The notes beneath the pieces are model-generated. The model did not search any database. It was not told the origin of the DNA and saw only the letters and a program-made list of their open reading frames with translations. 64,000 nt of DNA from Bacteroidales bacterium. GTDB taxonomy: Bacteria; Bacteroidota; Bacteroidia; Bacteroidales; UBA932. The stretch is taken from NCBI GenBank assembly GCA_016290835.1, contig JAEEVG010000003.1:29001-93000 (forward strand), written 5' to 3'. Position 1 is the stretch's first letter. Each line of letters opens with the position of its first letter. This document shows, one piece after another, positions 4,646 through 24,402 of the stretch. The translations under genes and the position numbers were made by a program.

Positions 4646-5550
4646 CACGCCAGGGCCTTCAGGATGTCGTTCCAGACCGTCAGGCGGTCCGTCTCGTTGA
4701 GAATCTCGTGGCGCATCCCGGGATAGAGCTTGACATCCACGTTCCGGTAGCCGACCTTCCGCATCAGTTCCGCCGCACTCTGCAGCGCTTCATCGGAGCC
4801 GCGGCAGGGGTCCTCGGCCCCGGAGATGAAATGCACGGGCAGCTGCGGCCGCTCAACCCGCCAGCCCTTCGCGCTGTAGCAGTCGTCCATCAGGCCCAGC
4901 AGCCCGACGAAGCCGTTGGCGGTGAACTGGTAAGCGCAGAGCGGGTCCTTGCGGTAAGCCTCGAGGGCTTCGGGGTCGGAACAGACCCAGGCGGCGGGGC
5001 CTTCCTGCTCGAAAGGCTTGTTGAAAGCCCCGAAAGAGAGCTCCTGCATCAGATTGGGACGGTAGTGCCAGCCCCGGGTAACTCCGAAAAAGCGGGCGAG
5101 CAGTTTCCCGGCCGCCTTGACCGGATTGTCCGAGGGGCTTCCGCAGACGAACAGGCGGTCCAGCCGGTCGTCGTAGCGCTTGGCGAAGGACCGCACGGCC
5201 ATCGAGCCCATGCTGTGTCCGAAGAGGGTGAAGTCCAGCCCGGGGAACTGCTCCCGGGTCCAGTCGCACACCACGCGGAGATCCTCCACCAGGGCACGCC
5301 AGCCGCCGTCATACAGGTATCCGAGATCCTCGTGGCTCTTGACGGAGGCGCCGTGGCCGCGGTGGTCGTGGATGACGCAGACGTAGCCGTGCTGCGTGAG
5401 CCACTCCATGAAGGGAATGTAACGCTCTTTGTGCTCGCACATCCCGTGTACGAGCTGGACCACGCCCCGGGGCGCTTCCTGCGGGACGCTGAGGAGCACC
5501 GCCAGGTCCAGGCCGTCGGCGGATGCGGGAAGGGACAATTCTTTGATCAT
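4645..5550 (-). CDS. Alpha/beta hydrolase, monoacylglycerol-lipase-like (S33/Hydrolase_4)
   Basis: A roughly 300-residue cytoplasmic alpha/beta hydrolase with no signal peptide. The oxyanion strand VVQLVHGMCEH, the nucleophile elbow GHSMGS, an acid in FISGAEDPC and the terminal PGMRHEILNE (catalytic His) match lysophospholipase/monoacylglycerol lipase-like enzymes. The substrate is unknown. I prefer the ATG at 5550 (MIKELSLPAS) over the in-frame ATG at 5568, because a TATCTTCG -7 element occupies 5558-5565 and transcripts would start too late to include the upstream codon. The 3' end overlaps the tadA start by one base. Confidence 0.82.
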   Translation of the reverse strand: MIKELSLPASADGLDLAVLLSVPQEAPRGVVQLVHGMCEHKERYIPFMEWLTQHGYVCVIHDHRGHGASVKSHEDLGYLYDGGWRALVEDLRVVCDWTREQFPGLDFTLFGHSMGSMAVRSFAKRYDDRLDRLFVCGSPSDNPVKAAGKLLARFFGVTRGWHYRPNLMQELSFGAFNKPFEQEGPAAWVCSDPEALEAYRKDPLCAYQFTANGFVGLLGLMDDCYSAKGWRVERPQLPVHFISGAEDPCRGSDEALQSAAELMRKVGYRNVDVKLYPGMRHEILNETDRLTVWNDILKALA

Positions 5551-5557
5551 ACGGATA

Positions 5558-5565
5558 CGAAGATA
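5558..5565 (-). promoter_or_regulatory. -7 element (TATCTTCG) of the hydrolase-tadA operon
   Basis: TATCTTCG on the minus strand is one mismatch from the Bacteroidota consensus TAnnTTTG. It ends 7 bases before the ATG at 5550, so the mRNA should have almost no leader. Confidence 0.5.
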
Positions 5566-5591
5566 CACTTTTTTGCGGATTTCGGCAACTA

Positions 5592-5625
5592 CGAAAAAGG
5601 GAGGACCCAGCCGGGCACCTCCCTT
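5592..5625 (-). terminator. Rho-independent terminator of the susCD operon
   Basis: On the minus strand, 33 bases after the susD stop, a perfect 8-bp stem (AAGGGAGG/CCTCCCTT; 5618-5625 with 5597-5604) is followed by a run of T (complement of A5594-A5598). This is the expected end of the susC-susD transcript. Confidence 0.8.
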
Positions 5626-5657
5626 CGTTCAACTAGTTTAAGTGGATAAATCGCAGT

Positions 5658-7481: not shown

Positions 7482-7496
7482 TGTGTAATGCATTGA

Positions 7497-10400
7497 TTAG
7501 AAGGTCAGGTTGACACCGAGAACGAGTTTCTGCATCGTAGGATAGGAACCCCAGTCGAGGCCGGCGCCGGAGGAATTGTTGGTCGAGGCCGTTTCCGGAT
7601 CGAGGCCGGGGTACTTGGTGAAGGTGAAGAAATCGTCGAGCGAGACATAGAAGCGGAGGTTGCTGATGGCGGCCTTGCGGGTCAGGTTGGCGGGCAGGGT
7701 GTAGCCGAGCTGCAACTGCTTGATACGGAAGAAATCTCCCTTGAACATGTTGGCCGTGGAGGACCAGTACTTGTAGTTACCGACGACCTTGGCCGGATGC
7801 GGCAGGGTGCCGTTGGGGTTGTCCGGAGTCTGGGAGTTGTACAGATAGTATTTCAGGTTGTTCTTGTAACCGGTGCGGTGGAGGAGCGGGATGATGGAAT
7901 TACCGCCGAGACCGGCGCCATACAGCGCGAAGTCGAAGCCCCTCCAGGCGAGGTTGATGTTCACACCATAGGTGAACTTCGGGGTGGTCTGGCCGATGTA
8001 CTGCATATCCTGGGTGCCGACTTCGGAAACGACCTCACCATCCTTGTTGCGGTAGAGGGGAGCGCCGTCCGAACCGATGCCTTCGTACACATAACCGTTA
8101 AGGTACCAAACCGGGTAGCCGGGCTCGAAGGCCGTACGGATCTCGTAGTTGGTGGAGCTGGCATCCGTCCGGTAGGTCGGAGCGGCGCCTTCCGCCAGCG
8201 AGAGGACCTTGTTTTTGAGGGTGGAGAAGTTGGCGTTGACCGAGTAGCTGAAGTCACCGATGGTGTCCCGCCAGCCGAGTTCGAACTCCCAGCCGGTGTT
8301 GAGCACGTTACCACCGTTGGCCATGGTGCTGCTCACACCCAGCTCGGGCGGAACGGACACGGAGAAGAGCAGGTCTTTCGTCTGCTTGTTGAAGTAGTCC
8401 ACACCGAAGGTCAGGCGGTTGTCGAACAGGCGGGCATCCAGACCGAAGTCGAGCTGCTCGGAGGTCTCCCATCTGAGGTTCGTGTTGGGCAGGCCGCTGG
8501 GCTTGGAACCGTAGGCGATGCTGATCTGGTCCACGTTGTACTGATACTTGGTGGCGCCGATGTCGATGGTGGCGGCGTACGGATATCCGCTCAGCACGCT
8601 GATGTTACCGTTACGGCCCCAGGAGGCGCGGAGTTTCAGGAAGTTGAACAGCCGGCTGTCAAGATTGTCCTTGAAGAACGGCTCATTGCTGATGGTCCAG
8701 CCTGCGGAGAAGGAAGGGAAGTAGCCCCAGCGGTTGTGGGCGGGAAGCTTGGAGGAGTCGAACGCGTCGGCGCGGAAGTTGGCCTGGAAGCTGTAGCGGT
8801 TGTCGAAGCTGTAGATCAAGCGGCCGAAGTAGGCGAGTGAAGCGCTCTTGCCCGGGGAGTTCTTGGCATCCTTGTTTATGCTGCTGAGCACATTGCTCAG
8901 GTAGCGGAAGTTCGGCTCGTAGTTCGGGAGGATGTCCAGGCCGGAGGCGCTGCCTGACACGTTGTCGTCATTGCTTTCGCGGTAGGACATACCGGCCATC
9001 GCCGTGATGTTGTGCCGGCCGAGCTGGATGTTGTAGTTCGCGAAGTTCTCCCACTGGTAGTAGAAGCCGTTATTCGCAGAAACGCTGAGGGAATAGGTGT
9101 CGGAAGAACCGCGGGAACCCAGGTAGTACGGAGACTGATAGCTGTGGGTGTTCTGGATCCAGATACGATAACCGAAACGGGACGTGATGGTCAGGCCCTT
9201 GATCGGCATGAAGTTGGCGAAGAGGGTGCCGTTGATGTTGAAGCCGCCGTCGGTGCCTTCGGAGATGTCGCGCTTGGCGAGGGCCGAGCCTTCCATATCG
9301 GCATATTTGGTGTTGGCGAAGAAACCGTTCTCGTCGCCGAGGAAGCGGTATTTGGGCGTGTTCGGATCGCCGGCCATCACCAGGTCATATTTCTGCTTCA
9401 CATCGTTGCCCATCTCGGCCGGGGTGGTCCAGTACACCGGGGTCAGCGGGTCCATGACGAGCATCTGCTCGAAGGAGGAAGTGTAGCCACGCTGGGAAAC
9501 ATTCTGGGTGGACCATTTCTCAATGGAGGAGTTGGTACCGACCTGGAGCCACTTGAAGAGCTGGTAGTCGGCATTCATCTGGAAGGTCAGGCGCTTGTAG
9601 ACATCCTTCTTGCCCTTGACCACACCGTCTTCGTTGACATAGTTGAGCGCACTGAAGAAGTGGCCGTTCTTGTTGCCGCCGGAGAAGCTGAGCGAGTGCT
9701 GCTGGGTCCAGCTGGGCTCCATGAAGCCGCTGATCCAGTCCTGGTCGATCACACCGTTCTCATAATACGGGTGTTTGTAGTCGAAACGCTGGAGGTTCAC
9801 GTCGACATCGTTGTCGCCGATTTCGAGCCGCTTGTATTTGAGGAATTCCTCGCGGTTCATCACGGGACGGCGGGAGAAGCTCTGCAGGGTGGCCTTGCCC
9901 GTGTAGTTCACGGAAGCCGTTCCCTCATTACCGGTCTTGGTGGTGACGAGGACGACACCGTTGCCGGCCTGCGCACCATAGATGGCGGCGGAGGCGGCGT
10001 CCTTCAGGACCTCGATGGATTCGATCAGGGAAGGATCGATGTACTGGATGCCGTCGACCTGCAGACCGTCTACGATGTAGAGCGGAGAGAGGCTGCCGCC
10101 GTTGGAGGAGTAACCGCGGACGCGGATGCTCGCACCTTGGCCCGGAGCGCCATTGGTGATGACGTGCACACCGGAAGCCTTGCCCTGGAGGGCGTGAGCG
10201 GCATCGGAGGTGGACTGGTTCTTGAGGGCGTCACCGCGGACGGAGGCCACGGCGCCGGTCAGGTCGCTCTTTTTCTGGACACCGTAGCCGATGACCACGG
10301 TCTCTTCGAGCATTTCGGCATCATCCTCGAGGATGACCCGCATGTTGTCGGAGACGACGACGCGGCGGGTGACATACCCGATGCAGGAGATTTCCACGGT

Positions 10401-10619
10401 CGTGCCGGGCGCGACGCGGATGGAGAAGTTGCCGTCTAGGTCTGTCGTGACGCCGTTGGTGGTGCCGGGCACCATCACGGCTGCACCAATCACAGCCTGG
10501 CCGCCTGCATCGACGACCTTGCCGTTGAAGGCGCGGTTCTGAGCGGAAGCCGGGAAGCCTCCCAGAGAAGCGAGGAGTATCATCAGGACACTCGCCACTT
10601 TCAACAGTTTTTTAAGCAT
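7497..10619 (-). CDS. SusC/RagA-family TonB-dependent outer-membrane transporter
   Basis: A 1040-residue TonB-dependent transporter. After a signal peptide ending ASAQ (about residue 27) comes a carboxypeptidase-regulatory-like domain (FNGKVVDAGGQAVIGAAV to about residue 90), then the SusC plug (ETVVIGYGVQKKSDLTGAVASV, and YIVDGLQVDGIQYIDPSLIESIEVLKDAASAAIYGAQAGNGVVLVTTK) and a 22-strand barrel ending in a terminal aromatic (GVNLTF). It has no N-terminal FecR-interacting domain, so it is not of the anti-sigma-coupled class. It imports oligosaccharides with the downstream SusD. No glycosidase directly adjoins the pair, so its substrate is not fixed by neighbours. Confidence 0.95.
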   Translation of the reverse strand: MLKKLLKVASVLMILLASLGGFPASAQNRAFNGKVVDAGGQAVIGAAVMVPGTTNGVTTDLDGNFSIRVAPGTTVEISCIGYVTRRVVVSDNMRVILEDDAEMLEETVVIGYGVQKKSDLTGAVASVRGDALKNQSTSDAAHALQGKASGVHVITNGAPGQGASIRVRGYSSNGGSLSPLYIVDGLQVDGIQYIDPSLIESIEVLKDAASAAIYGAQAGNGVVLVTTKTGNEGTASVNYTGKATLQSFSRRPVMNREEFLKYKRLEIGDNDVDVNLQRFDYKHPYYENGVIDQDWISGFMEPSWTQQHSLSFSGGNKNGHFFSALNYVNEDGVVKGKKDVYKRLTFQMNADYQLFKWLQVGTNSSIEKWSTQNVSQRGYTSSFEQMLVMDPLTPVYWTTPAEMGNDVKQKYDLVMAGDPNTPKYRFLGDENGFFANTKYADMEGSALAKRDISEGTDGGFNINGTLFANFMPIKGLTITSRFGYRIWIQNTHSYQSPYYLGSRGSSDTYSLSVSANNGFYYQWENFANYNIQLGRHNITAMAGMSYRESNDDNVSGSASGLDILPNYEPNFRYLSNVLSSINKDAKNSPGKSASLAYFGRLIYSFDNRYSFQANFRADAFDSSKLPAHNRWGYFPSFSAGWTISNEPFFKDNLDSRLFNFLKLRASWGRNGNISVLSGYPYAATIDIGATKYQYNVDQISIAYGSKPSGLPNTNLRWETSEQLDFGLDARLFDNRLTFGVDYFNKQTKDLLFSVSVPPELGVSSTMANGGNVLNTGWEFELGWRDTIGDFSYSVNANFSTLKNKVLSLAEGAAPTYRTDASSTNYEIRTAFEPGYPVWYLNGYVYEGIGSDGAPLYRNKDGEVVSEVGTQDMQYIGQTTPKFTYGVNINLAWRGFDFALYGAGLGGNSIIPLLHRTGYKNNLKYYLYNSQTPDNPNGTLPHPAKVVGNYKYWSSTANMFKGDFFRIKQLQLGYTLPANLTRKAAISNLRFYVSLDDFFTFTKYPGLDPETASTNNSSGAGLDWGSYPTMQKLVLGVNLTF

Positions 10620-10674
10620 GTTGTGTTTGAATTAAGGATTAATTATTAGGTAAATGGTTTACTTTTTTCAGGTT

Positions 10675-10691
10675 GCCGGAGCCTCTCCGGC
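10675..10691 (-). promoter_or_regulatory. Hairpin at the predicted 5' end of the susC mRNA
   Basis: GCCGGAG/CTCCGGC, a perfect 7-bp stem with a 3-base loop, begins 4 bases after the susC -7 box, i.e. at about +1. It could protect the transcript's 5' end or serve as a regulatory leader. There is no T-run directly after it. Confidence 0.5.
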
Positions 10692-10695
10692 GAAT

Positions 10696-10726
10696 CAAAT
10701 GTACATCGGATTCTCATCCCCGCAAA
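10696..10726 (-). promoter_or_regulatory. susCD promoter
   Basis: On the minus strand TTTG (10723-10726) is followed after exactly 19 bases by TACATTTG (10696-10703), matching the Bacteroidota consensus TTTG-N19-21-TAnnTTTG. The leader to the susC ATG is about 70 bases. Confidence 0.75.
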
Positions 10727-10908
10727 GCCTTATTATCCTTATAAAAAAGGATTGGTGCTTTTTTGATACATTTTGAACATATTTCAAAAAACGCGCGATG
10801 GATGGATAATAGTACTCATATGTTGTAATAATATGGCCGCCGGGTTTCCGGGAGGGGGGATTGAGCTTCCTTGGAAGAATCGTGATAGAAATTGATTGAT
10901 TTTTTACA

Positions 10909-10916
10909 TATCTTTG
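10909..10916 (+). promoter_or_regulatory. glpK -7 element (TATCTTTG)
   Basis: TATCTTTG matches TAnnTTTG and ends 8 bases before the glpK ATG at 10925, implying a leader of only a few bases. No good -33 box at the usual distance is seen. Confidence 0.65.
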
Positions 10917-10924
10917 TGAAGAAT

Positions 10925-12394
10925 ATGAAGCGATACATTCTCGCCCTCGACCAGGGCACCAGCAGTTCGAAAGCCATTGTCTTCGACCAGGACGGCCGGC
11001 AGGTCACCTTGCACCAGCAGGAATTCACCCAGCTTTTCCCCCGGCAGGGTTGGGTGGAGCAGAATCCGATGGAGATCTGGAGCTCGATGCGGGACGTGAT
11101 GCTCCGCGCCGTGGAGGAGGTCGGAGACGGCCCGATCGTGGCGCTCGGCATCGCCAACCAGCGGGAGACGACCATCGTCTGGGACGCCGATACGGGGCGG
11201 CCCATCTGCAACGCCATCGTCTGGCAGGACCGCCGCACCGCGGCTTATTGCGACAGCCTCAAGGGCCGCGGCCTGGAGGAGATGATCCGGGACAAGACCG
11301 GCCTGATCATCGACGCCTATTTCAGCGCGACCAAGATCCACTGGATCCTGGAGAATGTGCCCGGCGCCCGGCGCAAGGCCGACGCCGGCCGGCTCCGTTT
11401 CGGCACGGTGGACTCCTGGCTGATCTGGAACCTCACGGGCGGCAGGGTCCATGCCACCGACGTGACCAACGCCTCCCGTACGATGCTCTTCAATATCAAC
11501 ACCCTCTACTGGGATCCGGACCTGCTGGAACTCTTCGGCATCCCGGCCTCGATGCTGCCCCAGATCCGCAGTTGCAGCGAGCCTTACGGCGAGACCCTCG
11601 TCCACGGCAGACGCATCCCGATCACCGGCGTCATCGGCGACCAGCAGGCGGCCCTGTTCGGTCAGATGTGTGTGGACGAGGGGGCGGTCAAGAATACCTA
11701 CGGCACCGGCTGTTTCCTGCTGATGAACTGCGGCCACAAGCCGATTTTCTCCGAGAACCGCCTGATTACCACCGTCGCCTGGAAGATCGGCGACCGGGTG
11801 GATTATGCCCTCGAAGGGAGCATTTTCGTGGCCGGCGCCGTGGTACAGTGGCTTCGGGACGGTCTGGGCCTGATCGAGCATTCCCGGGACGTGGAGGCGC
11901 TGGCCGCCAGCGTGCCGGACAACGGCGGGGTGTATTTCGTGCCGGCGCTGACCGGGATGGGCGCACCCTACTGGAACCAGGACGTCCGCGGCACCATCGT
12001 GGGCATCACCCGCGGCGTGTCGGGCGCCCACATCGCCCGGGCGGCGCTGGAGGGGATCGCCTTCCAGACGATGGACATCGTCGCCGCGATGGAGCAGGAT
12101 GCCGGCATCCTCATCTCGGAACTCAAGGTGGACGGCGGCGCGGCCCGCAACAACCTGCTGATGCAGTTCCAGGCCGACGTGCTGGGTACGGAAGTCATCC
12201 GGCCCCAGGTCACGGAACTGACCGGGCTCGGCGCGGCCTACATGGCGGGCCTGGGCGTGGGGGTCTGGTTGTCCGTAGAGGACCTGCGCGGCCTGTGGAA
12301 GGCCGAGAAACGCTTCTCCCGCCGCGCTTCCGAGCGGCGGATGAACGAGGCAAAGGCAGCCTGGGCGGCCGCCGTGCACAAGGCGCTCGCATAA
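10925..12394 (+). CDS. glpK: Glycerol kinase
   Basis: A 489-residue FGGY-family kinase that phosphorylates glycerol to glycerol 3-phosphate with ATP. The N-terminus [21 protein letters not shown] is the first phosphate-binding motif of GlpK. Also visible are [10 protein letters not shown], the catalytic-region [38 protein letters not shown] and the C-terminal ATP site with [18 protein letters not shown]. An earlier in-frame ATG at 10892 would add 11 residues but lies upstream of the -7 box at 10909-10916, so 10925 is the start. No glpF or glpD is nearby, so the gene stands alone. Confidence 0.94.
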
Positions 12395-12407
12395 TTATTC
12401 CTCCGAC

Positions 12408-12439
12408 ATTGAAACTTTCGGAAAAAAGTTTCATCTTTG
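12408..12439 (+). promoter_or_regulatory. polA promoter
   Basis: A TTG -33 element (about 12409-12411) is followed after 20 bases by CATCTTTG (12432-12439), one mismatch from TAnnTTTG. The box ends 4 bases before the polA ATG, so the mRNA would start at or inside the start codon. The spacer also contains an inverted repeat (GAAACT/AGTTTC). Confidence 0.55.
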
Positions 12440-12443
12440 CGGT

Positions 12444-15167
12444 ATGAAACTTTTTCTGATAGACGGCCACGCGCTCATCTTCAAGATGTACTACGCCTTC
12501 CTGGGGCGGCCGATGGTCAATTCCAAGGGGGTGGATACCTCCATCCTGTTCGGATTCACGAAATACCTGCTCGAACTCATCGACCGGGAGCATCCCACCC
12601 ACATCGCGGTCAGTTTCGACCCGCCGGGGGGCACCTTCCGCAATGAACTCTATCCCGCCTACAAGGCCAACCGCGGGGAGACGCCCGCGCTCGTGGTCGA
12701 GGCGCTGGAGCCGCTGACACAGATCGTGCTGGCGATGGACATCCCGGTGCTGATGATGCCGGGTTTCGAGGCGGACGACGTGATCGGCTCCGCGGCCAAG
12801 CGTTTCGCCGCGGAGGGCTTCGAAGTCTATATGGTCACGCCCGACAAGGATTACGGCCAGCTCGTGGAGCCCCGCATCCTGCAGTTGAAGCCGGGCAAGG
12901 GCGGCGGGGAGAACGAGTTGCTGGGCGTGGCGGAGGTCTGTGAGAAATGGAAGATCGCCAGCCCGGCGCAGGTGGTCGACATCCTGGCCATCTGCGGGGA
13001 TGCTTCGGACAATGTGCCGGGGGTACAGGGCGTGGGGCCGGTGGGCGCTGCGAAGCTGCTGGCCAAATACGGCAGCGTGGACGGGATTTATGCGCACCTG
13101 GGCGAGCTGACGGCGCGTCAGCAGGAGCAGTTCCGCGCGGCGCAGGATCACATCGGCCTGTCCCGTGAACTGGTGACGATCAAGACCGACATTGCGTTGG
13201 ACGTGACGGCGGAGGACCTCGTCTACGACACCGCCGAGACCCCTTCCCTCATCTCCCTGCTCGACCTTTACGAAATGCCCTCCCTCAAACGGCTCCTCCA
13301 CAAAGTCGCCGTTTCTGATAGCGCCGCTTCCGCCGGAAGGCCAGATGCCCCCGGTCAACTTCGCTTCGCTCATCCCTCCCAGCCTTCGGCCGGGCCCCTC
13401 CCGTTTACGAGGCCACGGGTGGCCACGGTTGCCGGGGGCACTGGCCTTCCGGACGTTGAACCCGGCGCCGCAGAAGCGGTAGCGCGAAGATGTCTGGAGC
13501 CTGCCCAACTTGTTGCAAGCAATCCCCAGAAGCTGGCGGTGAACCTGCAGGGGGAGCGGCTGTTCGCCTCGGCGGGCACAGGCGTAGCCGAAGGCGCCCC
13601 GGAGGACTTCCGCGCCCTGCTCGAAGACCCCCAAGTCGTCAAAATCGGCACCGACCTCAAAGCCGTCATGCGCCGCCTCGCCGCCCGCGGCATCCACCTC
13701 GAAGGCCGCTTCGAAGACCTCGAACTGATGCACTACCTCCTCGGCCCCGAACGCAGCCACAAACTCGACGTCCTCGCCCGCAGCTACCTCGGCGTCGAAC
13801 TGGAAACCGCCCCGCAGGAAGCAGGAAACCTCTTCGACGAAGTCCCCGAGACCGGACCCGACCACCGCCTGGAAACCGCCGTCCTGCTCCCCCTCGCGGA
13901 CGAGCTGGCACGTGAAATCGCCGCGACCGAAGGAATGCAGCGCCTCTACGACGAGATCGAGGAACCCCTCATTCACGTCCTGGCCCGGATGGAACTCGCG
14001 GGCGTCAAGGTGGACCTGGACTCGCTTCGCGAATACGCGGAGGCGCTCCGCGCCAAGATGCTCGCCCGCGAAGCGGAAGTCCGCAATCTGGCCGGTGAAC
14101 CGACGCTCAACGTCCTGTCCCCCAAGCAGATCGGTGAAGTCCTCTTCGAGAAACTCCGCCTCGACCCCAAGGCCCGCAAACCCCGATCGGGCAACTGGCC
14201 CACCGACGAACAGACCCTGGTCCGCCTCGCCGCCGGCAACCCCATCATCGACGCCATCCTGGACTACCGCGGCCTGCGCAAACTCCTCTCGACCTACATC
14301 GAGCCTTTCGCGGGCTATATCTCCCCGGTGGACGGCCGCGTCCATACGACCTTCAACCAGGCCCTGACCGCCACCGGCCGCCTGTCCTCGTCCAACCCCA
14401 ACCTCCAGAACATCCCCATCCGCACGGAAGAAGGACGCGAGATCCGCAAAGCCTTCGTCGCGGGTGAGCCGGGCTGGGTGATGATGTCCGCCGACTATTC
14501 GCAGATCGAACTCCGGCTGATGGCCCACCTCTGCGGCGACGCCCACCTCGTGGACGCCTTCCGCCACGGACTCGACGTGCACGCGGCCACCGCCGCCCGC
14601 ATCTTCCACGTCGATCTGCACGAAGTCACCGCTGACCAGCGGCGCGTCGCCAAGACGGCCAACTTCGGCATCATGTACGGCATCTCCTCCTTCGGACTGG
14701 CGGAACGCCTGCGCTGCTCCCGGACGGAAGCCAAGCAGATCATCGACGACTACTTCGCCTCCTTCCCCTCCATCCGCGGCTTCATCGACCGGACCGTCGC
14801 CCAGGCGCGGGAACGGGGCTATGTGGAGACGCTCTTCGGGCGCCGCCGCTACATCGCCGACATCAACTCCGGCAACGCCACGGTCCGCGCCCTGGCGGAA
14901 CGCAACGCCGTCAACGCCCCGATCCAGGGCACGGCGGCCGATATCATCAAGCTGGCCATGAACGCCGTCGACCGGCGCTTGCGGGAAGGCACTTTCCGCT
15001 CCCGGATGGTGCTCCAGATCCACGACGAACTGCTGCTCGAGGTCCCGCAGGACGAAATCGCCCCCGTGCGCGAACTGCTGGTCCGCGAGATGGAGAACGT
15101 CATCACCCTGTCTGTCCCCCTGACCGTAGAATGCAATGAAGGAAGAACCTGGCTTGAAGCCCATTGA
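12444..15167 (+). CDS. polA: DNA polymerase I
   Basis: A 907-residue family A polymerase for gap repair and Okazaki-fragment processing. Residues 1-290 are the 5' nuclease (FLIDGHALIFKMYYAFLG, FEADDVIGS, TPDKDYGQLV, GDASDNVPGVQGVG). Residues about 340-500 correspond to the 3'-5' exonuclease domain but lack the metal-binding acidic motifs: the DTE motif is absent and motif II reads GTDLKAVMRRL without its Asp, so proofreading is probably lost. The polymerase domain is intact, with SADYSQIELRLMAHL (motif A), RRVAKTANFGIMYGIS (motif B) and QIHDELLLEVP (motif C). Residues about 297-337 are encoded by a 120-bp palindromic insertion. The ECF sigma gene starts inside its last 32 bases. Confidence 0.95.
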   Translation: MKLFLIDGHALIFKMYYAFLGRPMVNSKGVDTSILFGFTKYLLELIDREHPTHIAVSFDPPGGTFRNELYPAYKANRGETPALVVEALEPLTQIVLAMDIPVLMMPGFEADDVIGSAAKRFAAEGFEVYMVTPDKDYGQLVEPRILQLKPGKGGGENELLGVAEVCEKWKIASPAQVVDILAICGDASDNVPGVQGVGPVGAAKLLAKYGSVDGIYAHLGELTARQQEQFRAAQDHIGLSRELVTIKTDIALDVTAEDLVYDTAETPSLISLLDLYEMPSLKRLLHKVAVSDSAASAGRPDAPGQLRFAHPSQPSAGPLPFTRPRVATVAGGTGLPDVEPGAAEAVARRCLEPAQLVASNPQKLAVNLQGERLFASAGTGVAEGAPEDFRALLEDPQVVKIGTDLKAVMRRLAARGIHLEGRFEDLELMHYLLGPERSHKLDVLARSYLGVELETAPQEAGNLFDEVPETGPDHRLETAVLLPLADELAREIAATEGMQRLYDEIEEPLIHVLARMELAGVKVDLDSLREYAEALRAKMLAREAEVRNLAGEPTLNVLSPKQIGEVLFEKLRLDPKARKPRSGNWPTDEQTLVRLAAGNPIIDAILDYRGLRKLLSTYIEPFAGYISPVDGRVHTTFNQALTATGRLSSSNPNLQNIPIRTEEGREIRKAFVAGEPGWVMMSADYSQIELRLMAHLCGDAHLVDAFRHGLDVHAATAARIFHVDLHEVTADQRRVAKTANFGIMYGISSFGLAERLRCSRTEAKQIIDDYFASFPSIRGFIDRTVAQARERGYVETLFGRRRYIADINSGNATVRALAERNAVNAPIQGTAADIIKLAMNAVDRRLREGTFRSRMVLQIHDELLLEVPQDEIAPVRELLVREMENVITLSVPLTVECNEGRTWLEAH
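13333..13452. repeat. Palindromic repeat inserted in frame within polA
   Basis: Two arms, 13333-13359 and 13428-13452, are near-perfect inverted copies that differ by two single-base bulges; both start or end with CCGGAAGGCCAG or its complement. The element spans 120 bp, a multiple of three, keeps the reading frame and encodes a low-complexity Pro/Ala/Gly/Arg segment between the 5' nuclease and exonuclease-like domains. The loop contains a further small dyad (GGCCAC/GTGGCC, about 13411-13424). It resembles the palindromic elements known to insert in bacterial genes. Confidence 0.65.
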
Positions 15168-18289: not shown

Positions 18290-18580
18290 ATGGACAAAAT
18301 AGAACACAAATACCTCCTGGCCGTCGAACTTATCAAGAAGGCCATCCTCCAGAGCCAGTACAACGCTATCCGGCTCGTAAACCAGGAGCAGTTGAAGCTG
18401 TACTTCGGCATTGGCCGGTACATTTCCGAGAACTCCAGAAATGGTTTCTGGGGCACAGGAGCATTGGAAATCATCAGTGCTCAACTCAAGAATGATCTTC
18501 CGGGTTTGATGGGTTTCGGCGTGAGCAGTTTGAAGAATATGCGCATCTTCTACGAAGCTTGGGCAACGCTTGACGAATAA
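18290..18580 (+). CDS. YhcG/DUF1016 N-terminal fragment
   Basis: Ninety-six residues starting MDKIEHKYLLAVELIKKAILQSQYNAIRLVNQEQLKLYFGIG match the DUF1016 N-terminal domain (GRYISENSRNGFWGTGALEIISAQLKNDLPGLMGFGVSSLKNMRIFYEAW). In complete proteins this domain precedes a nuclease domain. Here it ends at TAA 18578-18580. The fragment could be translated on its own from the near-leaderless promoter. Base composition drops from this gene onward compared with miaB. Confidence 0.6.
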   Translation: MDKIEHKYLLAVELIKKAILQSQYNAIRLVNQEQLKLYFGIGRYISENSRNGFWGTGALEIISAQLKNDLPGLMGFGVSSLKNMRIFYEAWATLDE

Positions 18581-18601
18581 TCGCCAACCGCGATTGGCGA
18601 T

Positions 18602-19318
18602 TTGCAAACATCAGAAAATGAATCGATTATAATTCGCCAACCGCAATTATCGAATTTGGATGGCTTCCCGATGCAAGAGTTTTTTGCGGTGCCATTTACA
18701 CACCACATCCGGATTTTGGAGAAAGTCAAGGACCGGGACGAGAGAATCTACTACATCCAGCGGACGGCGCTTTCCCACCTGTCAAAGGATGCATTACTGA
18801 AGGCTGTCTCCGCAGACGAATACCACCATCGCGGCACCCTTCCCAACAACTTCCTCACCACCATCCCGGATGTACAGAGCGCTCGCCGCGCCATCCGCGC
18901 TTTCAAGGACGAGTACCTACTGGACTTCATCCTCAAGTTCGGCATGGAATTCCTCTTCATTAAGAACCAGTATGCCGTCGAGGTGAAAGGCCACACTTTC
19001 AAGATTGATCTGCTTTTCTTCAACCGGGAGCTCAATGCACTCGTGGCCGTGGAATTGAAACGAGGGCCCTTCAAAACCGCGTATTTGGGCCAGTTGAACG
19101 GCTATCTGACCGTACTGGATGACTTTGTCCGCAAGCCGCACGAGAATCCGTCCATCGGTCTGGTTTTATGCAAGAGCGCCGACAAATCCATTGTGGAGTA
19201 TCTCATCAAGGACTATAACAAGCCGATGGGTGTGGCTACATACCGCACTACGGAAGAAATGCCGGAAAAGTTCCGAAAAGCCTTGCCTGACATAGAAGAC
19301 CTGAAGAAACTTCTGTAG
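18602..19318 (+). CDS. YhcG/DUF1016 C-terminal PDDEXK nuclease fragment
   Basis: About 238 residues in the same frame as the upstream fragment. It contains the DUF1016 C-terminal domain: FFAVPFTHHIRILEKVKDRDERIYYIQRTALSHLS, KDEYLLDFILKFG, then the PDDEXK core FKIDLLFFNRELNALVAVELKRG (Asp near residue 138 and the E-x-K pair) and GQLNGYLTVLDDF. The boundary given is a TTG codon without a clear ribosome-binding site; the first in-frame ATG is at about 18672. Independent translation is doubtful, so this is most likely part of a pseudogene. Confidence 0.6.
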   Translation: MQTSENESIIIRQPQLSNLDGFPMQEFFAVPFTHHIRILEKVKDRDERIYYIQRTALSHLSKDALLKAVSADEYHHRGTLPNNFLTTIPDVQSARRAIRAFKDEYLLDFILKFGMEFLFIKNQYAVEVKGHTFKIDLLFFNRELNALVAVELKRGPFKTAYLGQLNGYLTVLDDFVRKPHENPSIGLVLCKSADKSIVEYLIKDYNKPMGVATYRTTEEMPEKFRKALPDIEDLKKLL

Positions 19319-19503
19319 TGTAAACCAAAAAGAACAGTAGGGGTAGTCAAATAAACTAATCCCATTTATAAGCCACATAATCCGCCTTATGGCGCCCGGC
19401 TCTTCTTTTTTGAGTAGGACATTCTTGGATGCAGATAGACGTAATCATTTATCTGCAAAAAAATCATATCAATAAACGAGCATGCTATCGCTTTTTGGAT
19501 GAT
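19319..19503. other. Intergenic stretch after the YhcG-like gene
   Basis: This AT-rich stretch has no convincing gene. A run of T after a weak dyad near 19403-19420 may end the YhcG transcript. On the minus strand a short open tail (complement of about 19359-19390) ends in KADYVAYKWD and then a stop, possibly a gene remnant, but I cannot identify it. Confidence 0.35.
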
Positions 19504-19556
19504 TATTTGGGTTTCGGCAGAACTATTTGGGATTCAACACGCAGTATTTGGGATTC
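19504..19556 (+). repeat. Three phased direct repeats (TATTTGGGnTTC) upstream of a promoter
   Basis: TATTTGGG(T/A)TTC occurs at 19504-19515, 19524-19535 and 19545-19556, so repeats are 20 and 21 bp apart, two turns of the helix. The last copy ends 3 bp before the -33 box of the thioredoxin-like gene. This geometry suggests an activator site array; a LytTR regulator is encoded 4 kb downstream. Confidence 0.6.
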
Positions 19557-19559
19557 GGA

Positions 19560-19591
19560 TTTGCAACATTATGGTGGAACATATATGTTTG
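19560..19591 (+). promoter_or_regulatory. Promoter of the thioredoxin-like/NVEALA cluster
   Basis: TTTG (19560-19563), 20 bases, then TATGTTTG (19584-19591) is an exact match to the Bacteroidota consensus. The -7 box ends 5 bases before the ATG at 19597. Confidence 0.75.
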
Positions 19592-19596
19592 TAAAT

Positions 19597-20163
19597 ATGA
19601 GAAGAGCCTCTCATAATTGGTTTGTTTTGATCGCTTTGTGCTTTCTTGTATTTGTCGCCACTGGCTGCAAGAAAGCACGTCTTCGGGCACAATTGAAAGA
19701 CTTGATGGCCAGTACTATCGTTCTGCCGGAGAAGATTTCTTGCGTGTACAACGGAGAGGTATTTCCGATGCCAGATTCGTTGCGAAACAAGCCCAAGCTG
19801 GTTATCTATATCGACTCTACAGAGTGTACGACATGTCGGATTTCTCACTTATGGGAGTATCAGACTCTTTTTGACTTGTCTTCACAAACTGGTTCATTTT
19901 ACGTAATGATTTTGATGTAGAATACGGAATTCAAATCTATTCCGTTGGTACGTTATCTATTGGATCAGAATGTAACTTATCCTGTTTTTGTGGATTTGAA
20001 TCGGAGTTTTTTAAAGGATAATTCGACTATTCCCGACGATATCAGAATGCATAGTTTGCTATTGGATAGTTTAAACAAGGTAAAATTTGTGGGAGACCCG
20101 AGTGCAACGACGAATATGCTAGAAGTTTTTAAACAAGCCCTTGAAGGGAATGATATGGAATGA
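19597..20163 (+). pseudogene. Thioredoxin-like (TlpA/redoxin-type) lipoprotein gene with an in-frame stop
   Basis: The frame starts MRRASHNWFVLIALCFLVFVATGCKK, a lipoprotein signal with Cys near residue 24. A thioredoxin-like strand and motif follow (KPKLVIYIDSTECTTCRISHLWEY, with CTTC as a CxxC). TAG at 19918-19920 interrupts the frame, which then continues without shift through IPLVRYLLDQNVTYPVFVDLNRSFLKDN to TGA at 20161-20163. Readthrough would give about 188 residues, similar to the short redoxin-like lipoproteins that accompany propeller genes in Bacteroidales. The CxxC lies before the stop. The gene heads the NVEALA/propeller cluster, 18 bp upstream of the first NVEALA gene. Confidence 0.6.
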
Positions 20164-20181
20164 AAACAATTTAACAATTTA

Positions 20182-20481
20182 ATGCAGATGAAGAATAAAC
20201 TACTGAGAGCCCTTGTCGCCATCTTGATGGTTATTTGTGTGTTGGTAGGGTTGATTTCGCGCTCGTACAATAACGACGCTTTTATTAACGAGAATCTTGA
20301 AGCCCTGACAGAGGAAGAAATCTCATTTGGTCGCTTGGGGACAGAGGTCAGAGTATGTGGGATGCCGGTAATTGAATGGAATGGTATTCAAACGACATGC
20401 TACCATACTGTCATTAGATGCAATTACTGGAATGGGGATGGCTGCCCGGAAACGTTGCCGTGCCCTATTCACGGCTCTTGA
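20182..20481 (+). CDS. Small exported NVEALA-family protein, Cys-rich
   Basis: A 99-residue protein: a membrane-type signal (MKNKLLRALVAILMVICVLVGLI), then NDAFINENLEALTEEE, a variant of the asparagine-x-E-A-L-(A/T) motif that defines the Bacteroidota NVEALA family. The mature tail carries five cysteines (VCG, TTC, RC, GC, PC), which suggests disulfides or metal binding. Family function is unknown. The ATG at 20182 or 20188 may be used. It lies between the thioredoxin-like gene and the first propeller gene (12 bp away), an arrangement that may link oxidative folding, a small exported peptide and a surface propeller. Confidence 0.72.
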   Translation: MQMKNKLLRALVAILMVICVLVGLISRSYNNDAFINENLEALTEEEISFGRLGTEVRVCGMPVIEWNGIQTTCYHTVIRCNYWNGDGCPETLPCPIHGS

Positions 20482-20492
20482 AACTGGTCAAA

Positions 20493-21611
20493 ATGAGACT
20501 TTTGAGGTTGTTGAGTATTTCCACAGCCTTTGTGCTCGTTTGTTGTTGTGCTGGTGGAGAAAAGAATTTCGTCAACGAGGCATTCCGGGTGCGTTGTGAC
20601 GAGTTCAATATGGAAGAGGGCTCACAAGATATTGTCGCATCTGTGGACTATCTGGTTCTTGAGCCTTCAGCAAGCCAGTTACTTGGAGAAATAGACAAAG
20701 TTGTCATTTTGGACGGGAGAATATATGTCGGAGACTATAAGAGTCAAAGGATTCTTGTTTTCAATGAAGATGGAAAGATGCTGAATGTCCTTGATAAGCG
20801 AGGACGGGGGCCGGGGGAATACCTTATGATGCGAAGTTTTTCCATTGCGAATGGAAACCTGTATGTGCTTGACGATTTCGAGTTCACGATCCGTGTTTAT
20901 GATTTGGAGACCCTGGCCTATCGACAATCAATGAAATCCCCTGTATTCGCAACAGATTTTTCGGCACTAGATGATGGCGGTTTTTTATTTGCATTTGCCC
21001 CTCTTTCCGAGAATCTTGTCGCTGACAAATCCAAGCGGTACAGAGTTGTCGTCACAGACGCAGACATGCAGATCCGCCATCGTTTTTTTCCTTATGGGGA
21101 AAAGGAAGTAGATGCATTGTGCTTTAATCAGTATCTCTCTGAAGCGGGGGAGTTTCTCGTTTATGGGACATTCCGGGAAGACGGATACTGCTTGTTCAGT
21201 CGTCAGGATGGACATTTAGAGGAGCATGTCGCATTTGATTTAACTCGGCCGATTCCAGCATCGGAACGCTCATCCATCCAGGCTGTCAGCGAAAGGAAGT
21301 ACAACTATATGATGAACGTTCCGTATTGTAGTGGGGACTATTTGGTGTTTAACATCTCCGCACAAGATGTTGGTGGGACTTGTGTTTATAACCGAAGAAG
21401 CGGGCAGTTTTTGAAGCCTCGTCAGAACGGAATTAACCATATGTTGGTCGGCATTATCGGTGGTGCTGGTAATCAGCTTATTGGGAACTGGGTTATCAAG
21501 ACCAATTATGAAAATTTGGTTAAGAATGGCTTTGAACGAGCGGAGATTTATGAAGAAGCAGCCATTTTAGCTGATGCCCCGTTCCTGGTTTTTTATCAAT
21601 TAAAAGAATAG
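20493..21611 (+). CDS. 6-bladed beta-propeller lipoprotein
   Basis: A 372-residue protein whose start MRLLRLLSISTAFVLVCCCAGG is a lipoprotein signal. It resembles the 6-bladed beta-propeller family of Bacteroidota: VVILDGRIYVGDYKSQRILVFNEDGKMLNVLDKRGRGPGEYLMMRSFSIANGNLYVLDD is the typical repeat with the K(R/G)RGPGEY motif, followed by further NHL-like blades. The family has no assigned enzyme activity; such proteins often sit next to NVEALA genes. I chose the ATG at 20493 because it opens the lipoprotein signal. Codon use and GC content are lower than in the flanking housekeeping genes. Confidence 0.78.
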   Translation: MRLLRLLSISTAFVLVCCCAGGEKNFVNEAFRVRCDEFNMEEGSQDIVASVDYLVLEPSASQLLGEIDKVVILDGRIYVGDYKSQRILVFNEDGKMLNVLDKRGRGPGEYLMMRSFSIANGNLYVLDDFEFTIRVYDLETLAYRQSMKSPVFATDFSALDDGGFLFAFAPLSENLVADKSKRYRVVVTDADMQIRHRFFPYGEKEVDALCFNQYLSEAGEFLVYGTFREDGYCLFSRQDGHLEEHVAFDLTRPIPASERSSIQAVSERKYNYMMNVPYCSGDYLVFNISAQDVGGTCVYNRRSGQFLKPRQNGINHMLVGIIGGAGNQLIGNWVIKTNYENLVKNGFERAEIYEEAAILADAPFLVFYQLKE

Positions 21612-21624
21612 TCGCTTCTTTTTT
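21602..21624 (+). terminator. Weak terminator-like stem after the first propeller gene
   Basis: AAAAGAA (21602-21608) can pair with TTCTTTT (21616-21622) over a 7-base loop, followed by more T. The stem is AT-rich and overlaps the stop codon, so termination is likely partial. Confidence 0.35.
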
Positions 21625-21745
21625 TGTTAGCCCTATTTTGTCCATAATTGAATGAATGCCTATCTGAGGGTGTTGTCTCGAAATGTAAGACAGTTGCTAT
21701 CCATCTGTGCTATTGTTCTATTAACCATTAATAATATTCAAAATC

Positions 21746-21991
21746 ATGAAAAAGTGTTCTTATGCTGTTATTGGAGCGATTTTAGCGATTTCTATGTTTT
21801 GTTTCTTTGAGAAAGCTGGAACTGTGGATAAGGTTCTAGATGCAAATGTTGAAGCGCTCTCCAGAATCGAAGACCCCATTGAGTTCCCGTGCGAAAGAGC
21901 GACTAGCCGGTGTTCATTTCCCGCCAAGATCGGAGACGAAATTGTGTTAGCTACAGTTGCTGGACTAAGAAATATAGATGAGGAGCTCTAA
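21746..21991 (+). CDS. Second NVEALA-family small exported protein
   Basis: An 81-residue protein: MKKCSYAVIGAILAISMFCFF is a signal or single membrane segment, then KVLDANVEALSR shows a clear NVEALA motif. The tail has two cysteines (PCERATSRC) and an acidic end. The stop TAA is followed directly by the ATG of the next propeller gene (21992), so the pair is translationally linked. No function is assigned to the family. Confidence 0.78.
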   Translation: MKKCSYAVIGAILAISMFCFFEKAGTVDKVLDANVEALSRIEDPIEFPCERATSRCSFPAKIGDEIVLATVAGLRNIDEEL

Positions 21992-23083
21992 ATGCGTCGG
22001 TCGTTCTATTCCCTTCTTTCTATTATTATTGTATTCTATGCTTGTTCCCAAACTATTTCGTCACCTAAAATACAATTGTCTTCGCTGGGCTCGATCAGGC
22101 TGATAGACAACTATATTTTTGAACTGGTGTATGCGAATGATAGTATCTTGCTAGCTTCTACATTAGAAAGCCCACAAATGATGCTCAAGATTCCTCTAGA
22201 TGGGGATGATGACAGCCGTGCAAAAGCATTCTTAAATCCGGGCAGAGGTCCAACAGACGCGTCTCAAACGATTCTGTATGAAGTCGCTTACGACACGTTA
22301 CATATACTGTCATACAGTCCTGCTGGCATAGAAAAAATCATCAAAATACCATTAAAACAGATCGATAATGTATCTGCGTGGAAGATATCAGACTGTTCGA
22401 CCGCACTAAGAGGAGTACAGGTTTCATCTGGTTTTACTGTTTCGAAAGCAGGAGATTATTATGTTGTTGGGGATCATTTGGGTGTACCGAATATTCTTTC
22501 AAAAATTGACGCATCAGGAAGAACATATCAGCCTATGGATTTTTGGCCGAAAGATTCATACCCTTTCAACTCAAACCCAATAGTCAAACAAATGGTATAC
22601 ATGAGAGGTGCGAAATTGTTCTGCAACGGTACTAATCTATTATATGTTTGTGGTGATGGTCAATATGCTATCATTGGTAATGAAAGCGATGGACACCATT
22701 TTGTTCCTCGAATAGAAGTTCTTAACAAAATGCCAAAATATGCGGGAGCATCAGATGGGATGAGTGTAAGGCGTGATCCGAAAGGAGAAATCGGATTGTA
22801 TTCTTACGCGTCTTATAAAGATGTTCTGTTGAGCCCAATTCTAGCGAGGATTAAGGGTGGTAAATATGTTCCAAATAGTTATAAAGGATATCCTGCTTAT
22901 TATTCGGATGTCTTAGTTAAATATGATTGGAACGGCACAGAATGCGGCTCATATACTTTGGATTATCCGTTTTGTTGTTTAATTCTGGATGAATCGGGTG
23001 AAAAGATTTATACCTTAAGTTTGGACATACAGACCGGAGATCAGGTGATTGAAATATATGATATGCCATCAGATTGCGAATAA
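21992..23083 (+). CDS. BF3164-like TolB-type beta-propeller lipoprotein
   Basis: A 363-residue protein beginning MRRSFYSLLSIIIVFYACSQ, a lipoprotein signal with Cys near residue 18. It matches the Bacteroidota 'BF3164-like lipoprotein' or TolB-like 6-bladed propeller group: SSLGSIRLIDNYIFELVYANDSILLAST, AFLNPGRGPTDASQ (the GRGP motif also seen in the upstream propeller), and a conserved last blade (YDWNGTECGSYTLDYPFCCLILDESGEKIYTLS). It starts right after the second NVEALA stop codon. It is likely surface or periplasmic; function unknown. Confidence 0.75.
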   Translation: MRRSFYSLLSIIIVFYACSQTISSPKIQLSSLGSIRLIDNYIFELVYANDSILLASTLESPQMMLKIPLDGDDDSRAKAFLNPGRGPTDASQTILYEVAYDTLHILSYSPAGIEKIIKIPLKQIDNVSAWKISDCSTALRGVQVSSGFTVSKAGDYYVVGDHLGVPNILSKIDASGRTYQPMDFWPKDSYPFNSNPIVKQMVYMRGAKLFCNGTNLLYVCGDGQYAIIGNESDGHHFVPRIEVLNKMPKYAGASDGMSVRRDPKGEIGLYSYASYKDVLLSPILARIKGGKYVPNSYKGYPAYYSDVLVKYDWNGTECGSYTLDYPFCCLILDESGEKIYTLSLDIQTGDQVIEIYDMPSDCE

Positions 23084-23189
23084 ACGACCTGACCGGAGAC
23101 GCTTGATAGGGATTTTTGATAAACAACATTATTATTGATTTATAATGCTCGGTGACCGAAGTAGAAGAAATACTAATGTCGAGGAGAGT

Positions 23190-23256
23190 GTCCAATGGAT
23201 GGCAAAGATGCTATTTTCGGTATTCCGAAGGAGATGATTCCGCATTGGACTTTTTT
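23190..23256 (+). terminator. Terminator after the second propeller gene
   Basis: GTCCAATG (23190-23197) pairs with CATTGGAC (23243-23250), closing a long loop that contains a smaller stem (TCGG/CCGA around 23217-23228), and six T follow. The 209-base gap from 23084 to 23292 holds this structure and the next promoter, and no gene. Confidence 0.5.
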
Positions 23257-23276
23257 CTGAATCTGTAGTTTTTTCG

Positions 23277-23284
23277 TATCTTCG
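23277..23284 (+). promoter_or_regulatory. -7 element (TATCTTCG) of the small membrane protein gene
   Basis: One mismatch from TAnnTTTG; it ends 8 bases before the ATG at 23293. Confidence 0.45.
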
Positions 23285-23292
23285 GGGCAAAT

Positions 23293-23619
23293 ATGACCGA
23301 AGACTTTTCATTAATAGGGTTGTTTTATGCCGGGGGTATCTGGATTATGTTTATCCTGACACTTTTGGTGATATGTTTGTTCCTTGCGGCCTGGAAGAAA
23401 CCACAATGGGTCTTGTATATCGGGATTCTCTCATTGTCATTAGCTTTTATATATACCCTTTGTCGTATTTGTGCTGCTGGGGTGGCGATTCAAAAAACCG
23501 GGACGATTCCTCGCCCAGGAATTATCGGGGCTACTCTCTATCATTGGACCATTCCCCTCATATATGCTATGGGGATCTTTCTGATCTCTTTAATCCTGAA
23601 AATGCTTCGCAAGCAATAA
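23293..23619 (+). CDS. Small integral membrane protein, unknown
   Basis: I do not recognise this 108-residue protein. It has three predicted membrane segments (about residues 8-30, 38-62 and 82-104), a short charged end (KMLRKQ) and no known motif. It has its own -7 element 8 bases upstream. Its last 30 bases overlap the 3' end of the convergent LytTR gene. Its position between the propeller genes and the regulator makes it a candidate accessory factor of that island. Confidence 0.55.
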   Translation: MTEDFSLIGLFYAGGIWIMFILTLLVICLFLAAWKKPQWVLYIGILSLSLAFIYTLCRICAAGVAIQKTGTIPRPGIIGATLYHWTIPLIYAMGIFLISLILKMLRKQ

Positions 23620-24336
23620 TTGCACCGAGGCTTGGTAGGTTCTGGAAACCGGCAGTTCCTGGCCGCTTTCAAGCGTCACTGAACGAGGATTGACTTTAGA
23701 TATAGTCAACTTGTTGACCAGATAGGAACGGTGTATCCGGACAAAGCCCCGGGAAGACAGTTCCTGTTCCCATTTTGAAATAGGAATATAATTCTGATAC
23801 TCTGCCCCGTCTTTTGTGACAACCACCGTAAATGTATCTGATGACCGGATAAAAGAGATATCCGCCACGGAGACAAGTTCTCGGCCCACTTTTACTTCGT
23901 AATTCATCGGTTCTTCATCTGCGCCAGGTGGTGACTCGCAAGGAGCCCCCCCCCTTCGCCAAAGGACAAAATCACCCATAGGTAACAGGACCGCGATAGA
24001 AAGAATGAACAAGGGATGTGTCATCAAGGCGGGATAACCTATTAAATCATAGGTTTTTCTGGAATAGAAAACAATATATTGAACAAGGAACAATAAACAA
24101 AGTGAAAGAATACCACACGCAAGAATCGGGAGCACATTTCTGAGCGACCACTGTAGATCATTTTTATTGTTCCGCATGCAGAAATACATCAGCGTGGCTC
24201 CGGGAAGAATGGTCAAAGCAGAAATAACAGACTTAGCTCCCCTATACCCGAAGATCAGGAAAAAGCCCCAGAGCGCAATAACCGCAACAAACCAATACAG
24301 AATATGTTTAAGAAGTACGTGACGCATTTTTATCAT
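23590..24336 (-). CDS. Membrane-anchored LytTR DNA-binding regulator
   Basis: A 248-residue protein. The N-terminal 130 residues have four likely membrane helices (ILYWFVAVIALWGFFLIFGY, SALTILPGATLMYFC, VLPILACGILSLCLLFLVQYIVFY, FILSIAVLLPMGDFVLW). The C-terminal 100 residues are a LytTR DNA-binding domain (VGRELVSVADISFIRSSDTFTVVVTKDGAEYQNYIPISKWEQELSSRGFVRIHRSYLVN, then LPVSRTYQASVQLLL). It has no receiver domain, so it would sense through the membrane part. LytTR proteins often bind pairs of repeats about 21 bp apart. It may control the island. A seven-C run after the membrane part encodes a Pro/Gly-rich linker. Confidence 0.85.
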   Translation of the reverse strand: MIKMRHVLLKHILYWFVAVIALWGFFLIFGYRGAKSVISALTILPGATLMYFCMRNNKNDLQWSLRNVLPILACGILSLCLLFLVQYIVFYSRKTYDLIGYPALMTHPLFILSIAVLLPMGDFVLWRRGGAPCESPPGADEEPMNYEVKVGRELVSVADISFIRSSDTFTVVVTKDGAEYQNYIPISKWEQELSSRGFVRIHRSYLVNKLTISKVNPRSVTLESGQELPVSRTYQASVQLLLAKHFQD

Positions 24337-24344
24337 AAACTGGC

Positions 24345-24375
24345 CAAAAATACGAAATATTACATAGTTCGCAAA
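24345..24375 (-). promoter_or_regulatory. Promoter of the LytTR gene
   Basis: On the minus strand TTTG (24372-24375), 19 bases, then TATTTTTG (24345-24352), 8 bases before the ATG: a full consensus match. Confidence 0.7.
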
Positions 24376-24402
24376 TTATTGATTGAAATGGTCGTGATTT
24401 CC

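Follow-up and report, generated by a model that had tools for sequence, protein, structure and literature searches.

NVEALA-type small proteins paired with propeller lipoproteins in a Bacteroidales genome point to a modular peptide-and-partner system

The window, a stretch of 64,000 nucleotides (G000:C79:29001-93000) from a 2.66-Mb Bacteroidales draft genome (112 contigs, 94% complete), contains a cassette in which two genes encoding NVEALA-type small proteins, NVE1 and NVE2, are each located directly 5' of a gene encoding a beta-propeller lipoprotein, PROP1 and PROP2, respectively. The four genes lie in one direction within positions 20182-23083, downstream of a thioredoxin-like gene. The features of the locus are as follows:

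18290..24400, no strand: low-GC island around the cassette, limits approximate (guanine-plus-cytosine (GC) content 39-53%, against 60-67% in the flanks)
19597..20163, + strand: thioredoxin-like lipoprotein gene (CxxC, 'DSTECTTCRIS') with an in-frame TAG at 19918-19920 (translation, profile match of both halves)
20182..20481, + strand: NVE1, NVEALA-type small protein of 99 residues, motif NLEALTEEE, five cysteines in the tail (translation, profile match)
20493..21611, + strand: PROP1, 6-bladed beta-propeller lipoprotein, PF17170 (Pfam match, structure model)
21746..21991, + strand: NVE2, NVEALA-type small protein of 81 residues, motif NVEALSRIE, two cysteines in the tail (translation, profile match)
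21992..23083, + strand: PROP2, divergent propeller lipoprotein (profile match, no Pfam match)

An earlier note on this DNA had described a five-gene cassette with this order, and both small-protein and propeller pairs were indeed found in one direction where it had placed them. The cysteine counts (five and two, all behind the motif) and the 0 bp between NVE2 and PROP2 agreed with our reading, whereas the 12 bp reported between NVE1 and PROP1 became 11 bp, with the ATG at 20493 that we chose as the start of PROP1 (the listed open reading frame starts at 20418). The signal peptides of the note appear plausible, since hydrophobic N-termini and lipobox-like cysteines were visible by eye in the translations. 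Its thioredoxin-like gene, in a finding that began at 19504, proved not to be intact: the frame starts at the ATG at 19597 and meets a TAG at 19918-19920, 107 residues in and behind the CxxC, the remainder being open to 20163.

PROP1 belongs to the Pfam family PF17170 (DUF5128), which it matched with 115.2 bits (E = 4.5e-33; gathering score 22.9 bits). A model built from its single sequence was poor (predicted local distance difference test score, pLDDT, 39.1), but nine sequences, eight relatives having been added, gave a pLDDT of 85.4, and the best match of this model in the PDB was 4raa, an exported protein of Bacteroides fragilis (BF0058) and a solved member of the PF17170 and PF15869 (TolB_like, BF3164) propeller lipoproteins, with template modelling (TM) scores of 0.71/0.74. 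NHL domains, the vitamin-B12-binding BtuG lipoproteins, and BamB were far weaker fold matches. PROP2, unlike PROP1, had no match in Pfam and was thus counted only as a divergent propeller relative; its group aligned with the PROP1 group by hhalign at 94.9% over 159 columns, and the best E-value of this group against PDB sequences was 0.92. Relatives of PROP2 at E 1e-5 were present in one of 60 other genomes (two copies, in G013), and a search for loci related to PROP2 found nothing. Two genes of 425 residues that adjoin propellers in G013 (L024 13652-14929 and 16139-17416) are alike in the parts compared, and the one tested had no Pfam family. Relatives of PROP1 were found on contigs named as uncultured Bacteroidales, Candidatus Cryptobacteroides, and an Alistipes isolate, among others, and in three Phocaeicola plasmid records. 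A plasmid search with one Bacteroidales NVEALA protein (L120) and a phage search with NVE1 gave no match.

The two small proteins share an N-terminal hydrophobic segment, the N[VIL]EAL motif, and a short cysteine-bearing tail with the Pfam NVEALA family PF14055, which is described there without a function, but both fall below its cut-off: NVE1 had no match, NVE2 reached 12.4 bits (E = 0.14) against a gathering score of 27 bits, and a PF14055 search of the whole window genome found none. They were assigned to the NVEALA type on the N[VIL]EAL[ATS]xxE motif that each carries between its hydrophobic segment and its tail. Our first profiles had PROP1, PROP2, and NVE2 among their seeds, so that their scores were not independent; a profile from 97 NVEALA relatives, the window left out, recovered NVE1 (E = 4.1e-10) and NVE2 (4.9e-8), and a propeller profile from which the window proteins and six listed members of the PROP2 clade were excluded recovered PROP1 (3.5e-46) and PROP2 (8.2e-12).

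Among 91 unique proteins, the motif had N in 90, E in 87, A in 82, and L in 89, while the sixth position was A in 59, T in 17, S in 7, M in 5, G in 2, and L in 1. The first five positions were partly fixed by the pattern used to place the motif, and the sixth was restricted to A, T, or S in the profile seeds; the E found three residues after it in 86 of 91 proteins was part of no pattern. Behind the motif, 78 of 82 measured tails contained 2, 4, 5, or 6 cysteines.

The PF14055 model, which misses both NVEALA genes of the window, matched 17 of 200 genomes in a genus sample (E up to 0.01; 7 of the 17 over the cut-off), 11 of 295 genomes and 9 of 177 genera in an order sample (E up to 1e-5), and 4 of 394 genomes in a phylum sample, so that by this model the family is rare outside Bacteroidales. 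The loci of two genus genomes with weak matches in longer frames (G069 and G162) were left out of fetching. When a propeller frame was required to start within 600 bp downstream of the match, an overlap of up to 250 bp being allowed, a propeller followed 40 of 45 matches of the genus set, the others being 3 with no propeller and 2 that were not fetched, and 24 of 32 matches of the order set, where 6 had no propeller and 2 lay at ends; the two sets together give 64 of 77. Fewer than 100 propeller places at E 1e-5 were listed over all 200 genus genomes together, and the matches were chosen regardless of propellers. Chance adjacency, which the earlier note had named as an outcome that would refute its reading, was thus rejected. 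In a scan of 71 loci with our own profiles, the window included, a propeller came directly after 82 of 99 NVEALA genes with a median gap of 5 bp; some of these loci had been picked for holding propellers, and the counts from PF14055 matches are therefore the fair ones. The gene order recurred in nine families of the order. A DDE transposase gene lies between two NVEALA-propeller pairs in one locus (L149 6298-7617) and is a possible means of shuffling. A literature search found no paper with the word NVEALA, and one on Pfam and DUF numbers returned only titles on Plasmodium and enzyme profiles.

The relation between the neighbours was then examined in 76 distinct pairs, the tail being taken from nine residues after the motif start and the propeller as its last 330 residues. 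Between genomes, the similarity of tails followed that of the downstream propellers (r 0.69) far more closely than when tails were shuffled within genomes (0.08 ± 0.05). The correlation was 0.58 (0.06 shuffled) after removal of near-identical pairs and 0.31 (0.02 shuffled) among propellers below 0.3 similarity. The two groups taken apart gave r 0.71 for 52 pairs of the genus and 0.51 against 0.14 for 24 pairs of the order sample, and for 49 of the 76 pairs, against 5.3 expected, the propeller that goes with the nearest foreign tail was among the five nearest foreign propellers. The leader of the same NVEALA protein did no better than shuffles (r 0.01-0.06, p 0.71-0.92), although leaders are more alike within genomes than between them at the protein level (0.295 against 0.114). 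Sliding windows along the small protein placed the switch at the motif, with r 0.03-0.07 before it, 0.11-0.18 across it, and 0.30-0.41 behind it.

The upstream propeller gave r -0.01 to 0.09 with the tail in 17 cases in which the downstream one gave 0.54-0.69, and r 0.10 (p 0.07) in 23 cases. Two of the other neighbour controls also showed low values, with 0.02 between a propeller and the next propeller (n = 24) and 0.11 between a thioredoxin-like protein and the next tail (n = 20). Both pairs of the window behaved in the same way as the rest: of the 75 other pairs, the one with the most similar tail also had the most similar propeller. The tail of NVE1 grouped with tails of G167, G170, G182, G207, and G124, and that of NVE2 with those of L065 14139, L071 13380, L070 2146, and L024 10266. 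The proposed partnership between each small protein and the propeller that follows it thus gained a type-specific co-diversification that appears to argue for it, with tight linkage as a rival.

The genes recurring around the arrays encode the thioredoxin-like lipoprotein, an S26 signal peptidase (PF10502), an O-antigen-ligase-like protein (PF04932), and a transglutaminase-like lipoprotein, and some of the genes for an outer-membrane channel, an adaptor, and an RND pump were located in or next to NVEALA stretches in 11 of the 15 genus genomes read and in 3 of 11 order genomes. Counted without correction for species relatedness, the transglutaminase-like gene was present in 13 of 17 NVEALA genomes against 8 of 183 others; for the O-antigen-ligase-like gene, the corresponding counts were 13 and 10. 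A cysteine and a histidine were invariant in all 13 transglutaminase-like proteins compared, and a serine and a lysine, which we take to be the catalytic pair, in all 11 S26 proteins. Two fused frames, one joining S26 to the transglutaminase-like protein and the other the O-antigen-ligase-like to the transglutaminase-like protein, would support a common task unless they are sequence faults.

A fuller module was found on a 92.5-kb plasmid of Phocaeicola vulgatus CL10T00C06, where the annotated genes are NVEALA, propeller, redoxin, lepB, O-antigen ligase, a hypothetical gene, transglutaminase (with a weak Transglut_core match), and a further propeller; a second pair on the same plasmid has a BF3164 lipoprotein as its propeller. 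Both NVEALA genes exceeded the Pfam cut-off (44.3 and 37.2 bits), each being followed by a propeller-type lipoprotein gene, and no RND pump was annotated in the 52 kb viewed. This plasmid (pPvulCL10_1, L162) also has genes annotated as TIR, SIR2, RloB, and retron-system HNH proteins.

The window cassette would be a reduced version of this module. At the cut-offs used, the window genome (94% complete) yielded no O-antigen-ligase-like match at 1e-40, only a generic partial transglutaminase match with none of the module type, and no module-type S26, one signal-peptidase-like frame of 435 residues being located on another contig. Its thioredoxin-like gene, which was expected from the earlier note to handle the disulfides, retains the CxxC in an interrupted frame, so that it does not count as an intact member of the module. 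The two halves, aligned separately with relatives, both belong to the family, with E-values of 1.1e-23 and 6.4e-20 against a profile from which the window was excluded. The gene is probably a pseudogene, or the TAG may be a sequence error of the draft genome. A thioredoxin-like gene lies immediately upstream of 26 of the 99 NVEALA genes in the scanned loci.

Contig C18 of the window genome, which does not carry the cassette, keeps channel, adaptor, and RND genes in a stretch that is 82% identical over 6.8 kb to L149; it also has a propeller, with no NVEALA gene found. In L149, these genes come after NVEALA-propeller arrays that include a 5-cysteine NVEALA protein and a propeller (7905-9098) 50% identical to PROP1 over 365 residues; the 17 kb of L149 examined contained an O-antigen-ligase fragment only, and no S26 or transglutaminase-like gene.

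The cassette itself sits in an island of about 6 kb (18.3-24.4 kb), whose low GC content compared with its flanks suggests acquired DNA. A YhcG/DUF1016 nuclease gene at 18290-19318 (+ strand) adjoins the cassette, and a stop codon splits its frame, with DUF1016_N (4.9e-16) and YhcG_C (1.7e-38) matched in two pieces; two stop-split genes make the island look partly decayed. The same island holds, at 23293-24336, genes for a membrane protein of 108 residues (+ strand) and a LytTR-domain protein (- strand, PF04397, 6.8e-19). Promoter and terminator scans (16 found against 10.0 ± 3.3 expected, and 4 against 3.0 ± 1.8) gave nothing that was used.

Taken together, we consider it rather probable that the cassette represents, in reduced form, a modular Bacteroidales small-protein-and-partner system in which each propeller is the dedicated partner, immunity-like or receptor-like, of the preceding tail. 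An NVEALA protein would start with a hydrophobic export segment, continue with a leader whose last residues are N[VIL]EAL[ATS]xxE and which generally resembles the other leaders of its genome, and finish with a short, variable, cysteine-rich tail that would be the functional peptide. From this layout we infer export by the Sec pathway, cleavage near the motif by the S26 peptidase of the module (in the window genome, by its single signal peptidase on another contig), formation of the disulfides with the thioredoxin-like protein and, in many species, exit of the peptide via the neighbouring RND/TolC pump. Signal peptidase prefers small residues at -3 and -1, and a cut behind the sixth motif residue would suit these rules, with A at position 4 and A, T, or S at position 6. 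A double-glycine-type cleavage by a C39 peptidase was set aside: the hydrophobic spacing is similar, but only 38 of 91 proteins have a glycine just before the conserved E, and the position preceding this one is variable.

The peptide would finally be bound by its own propeller, acting either as an immunity protein that protects the producer or as a receptor that senses the peptide, a role suggested by the arrangement of the genes. Surface exposure of the propellers was set aside, because an acidic, surface-export-like stretch followed the lipobox in only 13 of 125 propellers with a lipobox (158 unique propellers); the scarcity of such signals suggests that they face the periplasm. In bacteriocin-immunity and pheromone-receptor pairs, a gene for a small variable product lies beside that of a dedicated partner, and orphan partners occur. 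At the level of the genes, the NVEALA loci resemble them in these respects. To our knowledge, a propeller would be an unusual partner in such pairs. BcpT of P. vulgatus (PMC9308784) provides a case for comparison.

Orphan propellers were frequent. The 75 propellers without a directly preceding NVEALA gene had a median similarity to paired types of 0.11, against 0.31 for paired ones. Some were near paired types of other species, such as six in one array of G138 that are close to five different pairs, and these would fit orphan immunity or receptor genes, or duplicates. A different arrangement was seen in the window genome itself (L015, G000:C78:4000-20000, at 4771-13500), where three small proteins with a double-glycine (GG) leader are each encoded directly 5' of a PF17170 propeller, together with a C39-type ABC exporter and a TIGR04148 radical SAM maturase; one of the three precursors was tested and belonged to TIGR04149. 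These double-glycine precursors of ribosomally synthesized and post-translationally modified peptides resemble NVEALA proteins in that small precursor-like genes lie directly upstream of PF17170 propellers, but differ in having no export segment that could be seen, a GG leader, and a radical SAM enzyme and ABC exporter in place of S26/RND. With TIGR04149 matches in only 2 of 200 genus genomes and one propeller-linked locus, that of the window genome, pairing of propellers with a second peptide class was rejected as a general rule. A regular-expression scan for GG peptides upstream of orphan propellers returned two meaningless matches and missed the known ones.

Several observations weigh against a dedicated tail-propeller partnership processed in this way. 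Six of 91 proteins carry M or L where the -1 residue would be, and in 80 of the 82 measured the motif begins only 11-21 residues after the end of the hydrophobic stretch, a long distance for signal peptidase. No propeller came directly after 17 of the 99 NVEALA genes: in 5 cases the next gene was another NVEALA gene and in 1 case a thioredoxin-like gene, 9 had no labelled gene within 600 bp, and 2 lay at an edge. Many propellers had no NVEALA gene, and most orphans were not close to a paired type. Since no S26, ligase, or transglutaminase gene of the module was found in the window genome, these are not needed to keep the pairs, or the copy is decaying. The rank correlation of tails and propellers was low (0.10-0.13), in our opinion because most comparisons join unrelated pairs and add only noise, the signal lying in related tails with related propellers. 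Between the genus and other families, the ten most alike cross tails had propellers at most 0.07 alike, so that the pairing is visible only within each group. In the 18 pairs with a thioredoxin-like gene directly upstream, the tail-propeller correlation was only 0.26 (p 0.01), against 0.11 (p 0.15) for tail and thioredoxin. A propeller and the next thioredoxin-like gene gave r 0.33 (n = 29, p 0.001), which indicates that linkage or shared species history can account for some of any such correlation.

Adjacent genes could indeed co-diversify by linkage alone, a recombination point in the leader moving tail and propeller as one mobile block while the two proteins act apart without binding. Because the tail-coding part directly adjoins the propeller gene (median gap 5 bp), recombination between them should be rare, and the greater likeness of leaders within genomes offers a possible crossover point. 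As mobile DNA would be, the propeller genes were poorer in GC than the DNA around them in 35 of the 37 loci that had over 3 kb of unlabelled sequence. Yet this linkage, which by itself yields 0.33 between propeller and thioredoxin-like gene, left only 0.02 between neighbouring propellers and 0.10 between a propeller and the next tail, while the tail-propeller pairing survived deep divergence (r 0.31) and the gene order was repeated across nine families; we regard linkage without binding as doubtful, with some chance of being correct. That the propeller is instead a peptide-specific chaperone or docking protein, which passes the peptide to the maturation and export machinery and has no immunity or receptor role, seems unlikely to us. 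Its probably periplasmic location, the position of its gene among processing and export genes, and the weaker fold match to BamB, a periplasmic scaffold propeller, would agree with such a task, but arrays of orphan propellers without small-protein genes are hard to explain by it. Lower still do we rate the chance that NVEALA proteins are structural parts of the envelope or lids of the propellers, as permanent subunits rather than secreted signals or toxins: the recurrent pairing and a hydrophobic N-terminus that could remain as an anchor would allow this, but the short, variable, cysteine-rich tails with a sharp boundary at the motif have the pattern of processed peptides, and many loci include a linked gene for an S26 signal peptidase.

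The conservation of the same pairs in other Bacteroidales points to an undescribed peptide-and-partner system. As a tentative extension of the dedicated-partner reading, NVEALA loci could form a patchy peptide weapon or signal system of the Bacteroidales, in which shared leaders and common processing serve exchangeable cysteine-rich tails, every tail being matched by a periplasmic propeller that acts as its immunity protein or receptor, and in which orphan arrays protect against, or detect, peptides made by other species. For P. vulgatus CL10T00C06, deletion mutants and a barcoded transposon library are described in PMC13114119, and with the fuller module on a plasmid of this strain, pairing, processing, and purpose become directly testable. 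NVEALA and the Bacteroides propeller lipoproteins, two families that databases list by name only, could thereby be tested as a single system for which a pairing code is predicted.

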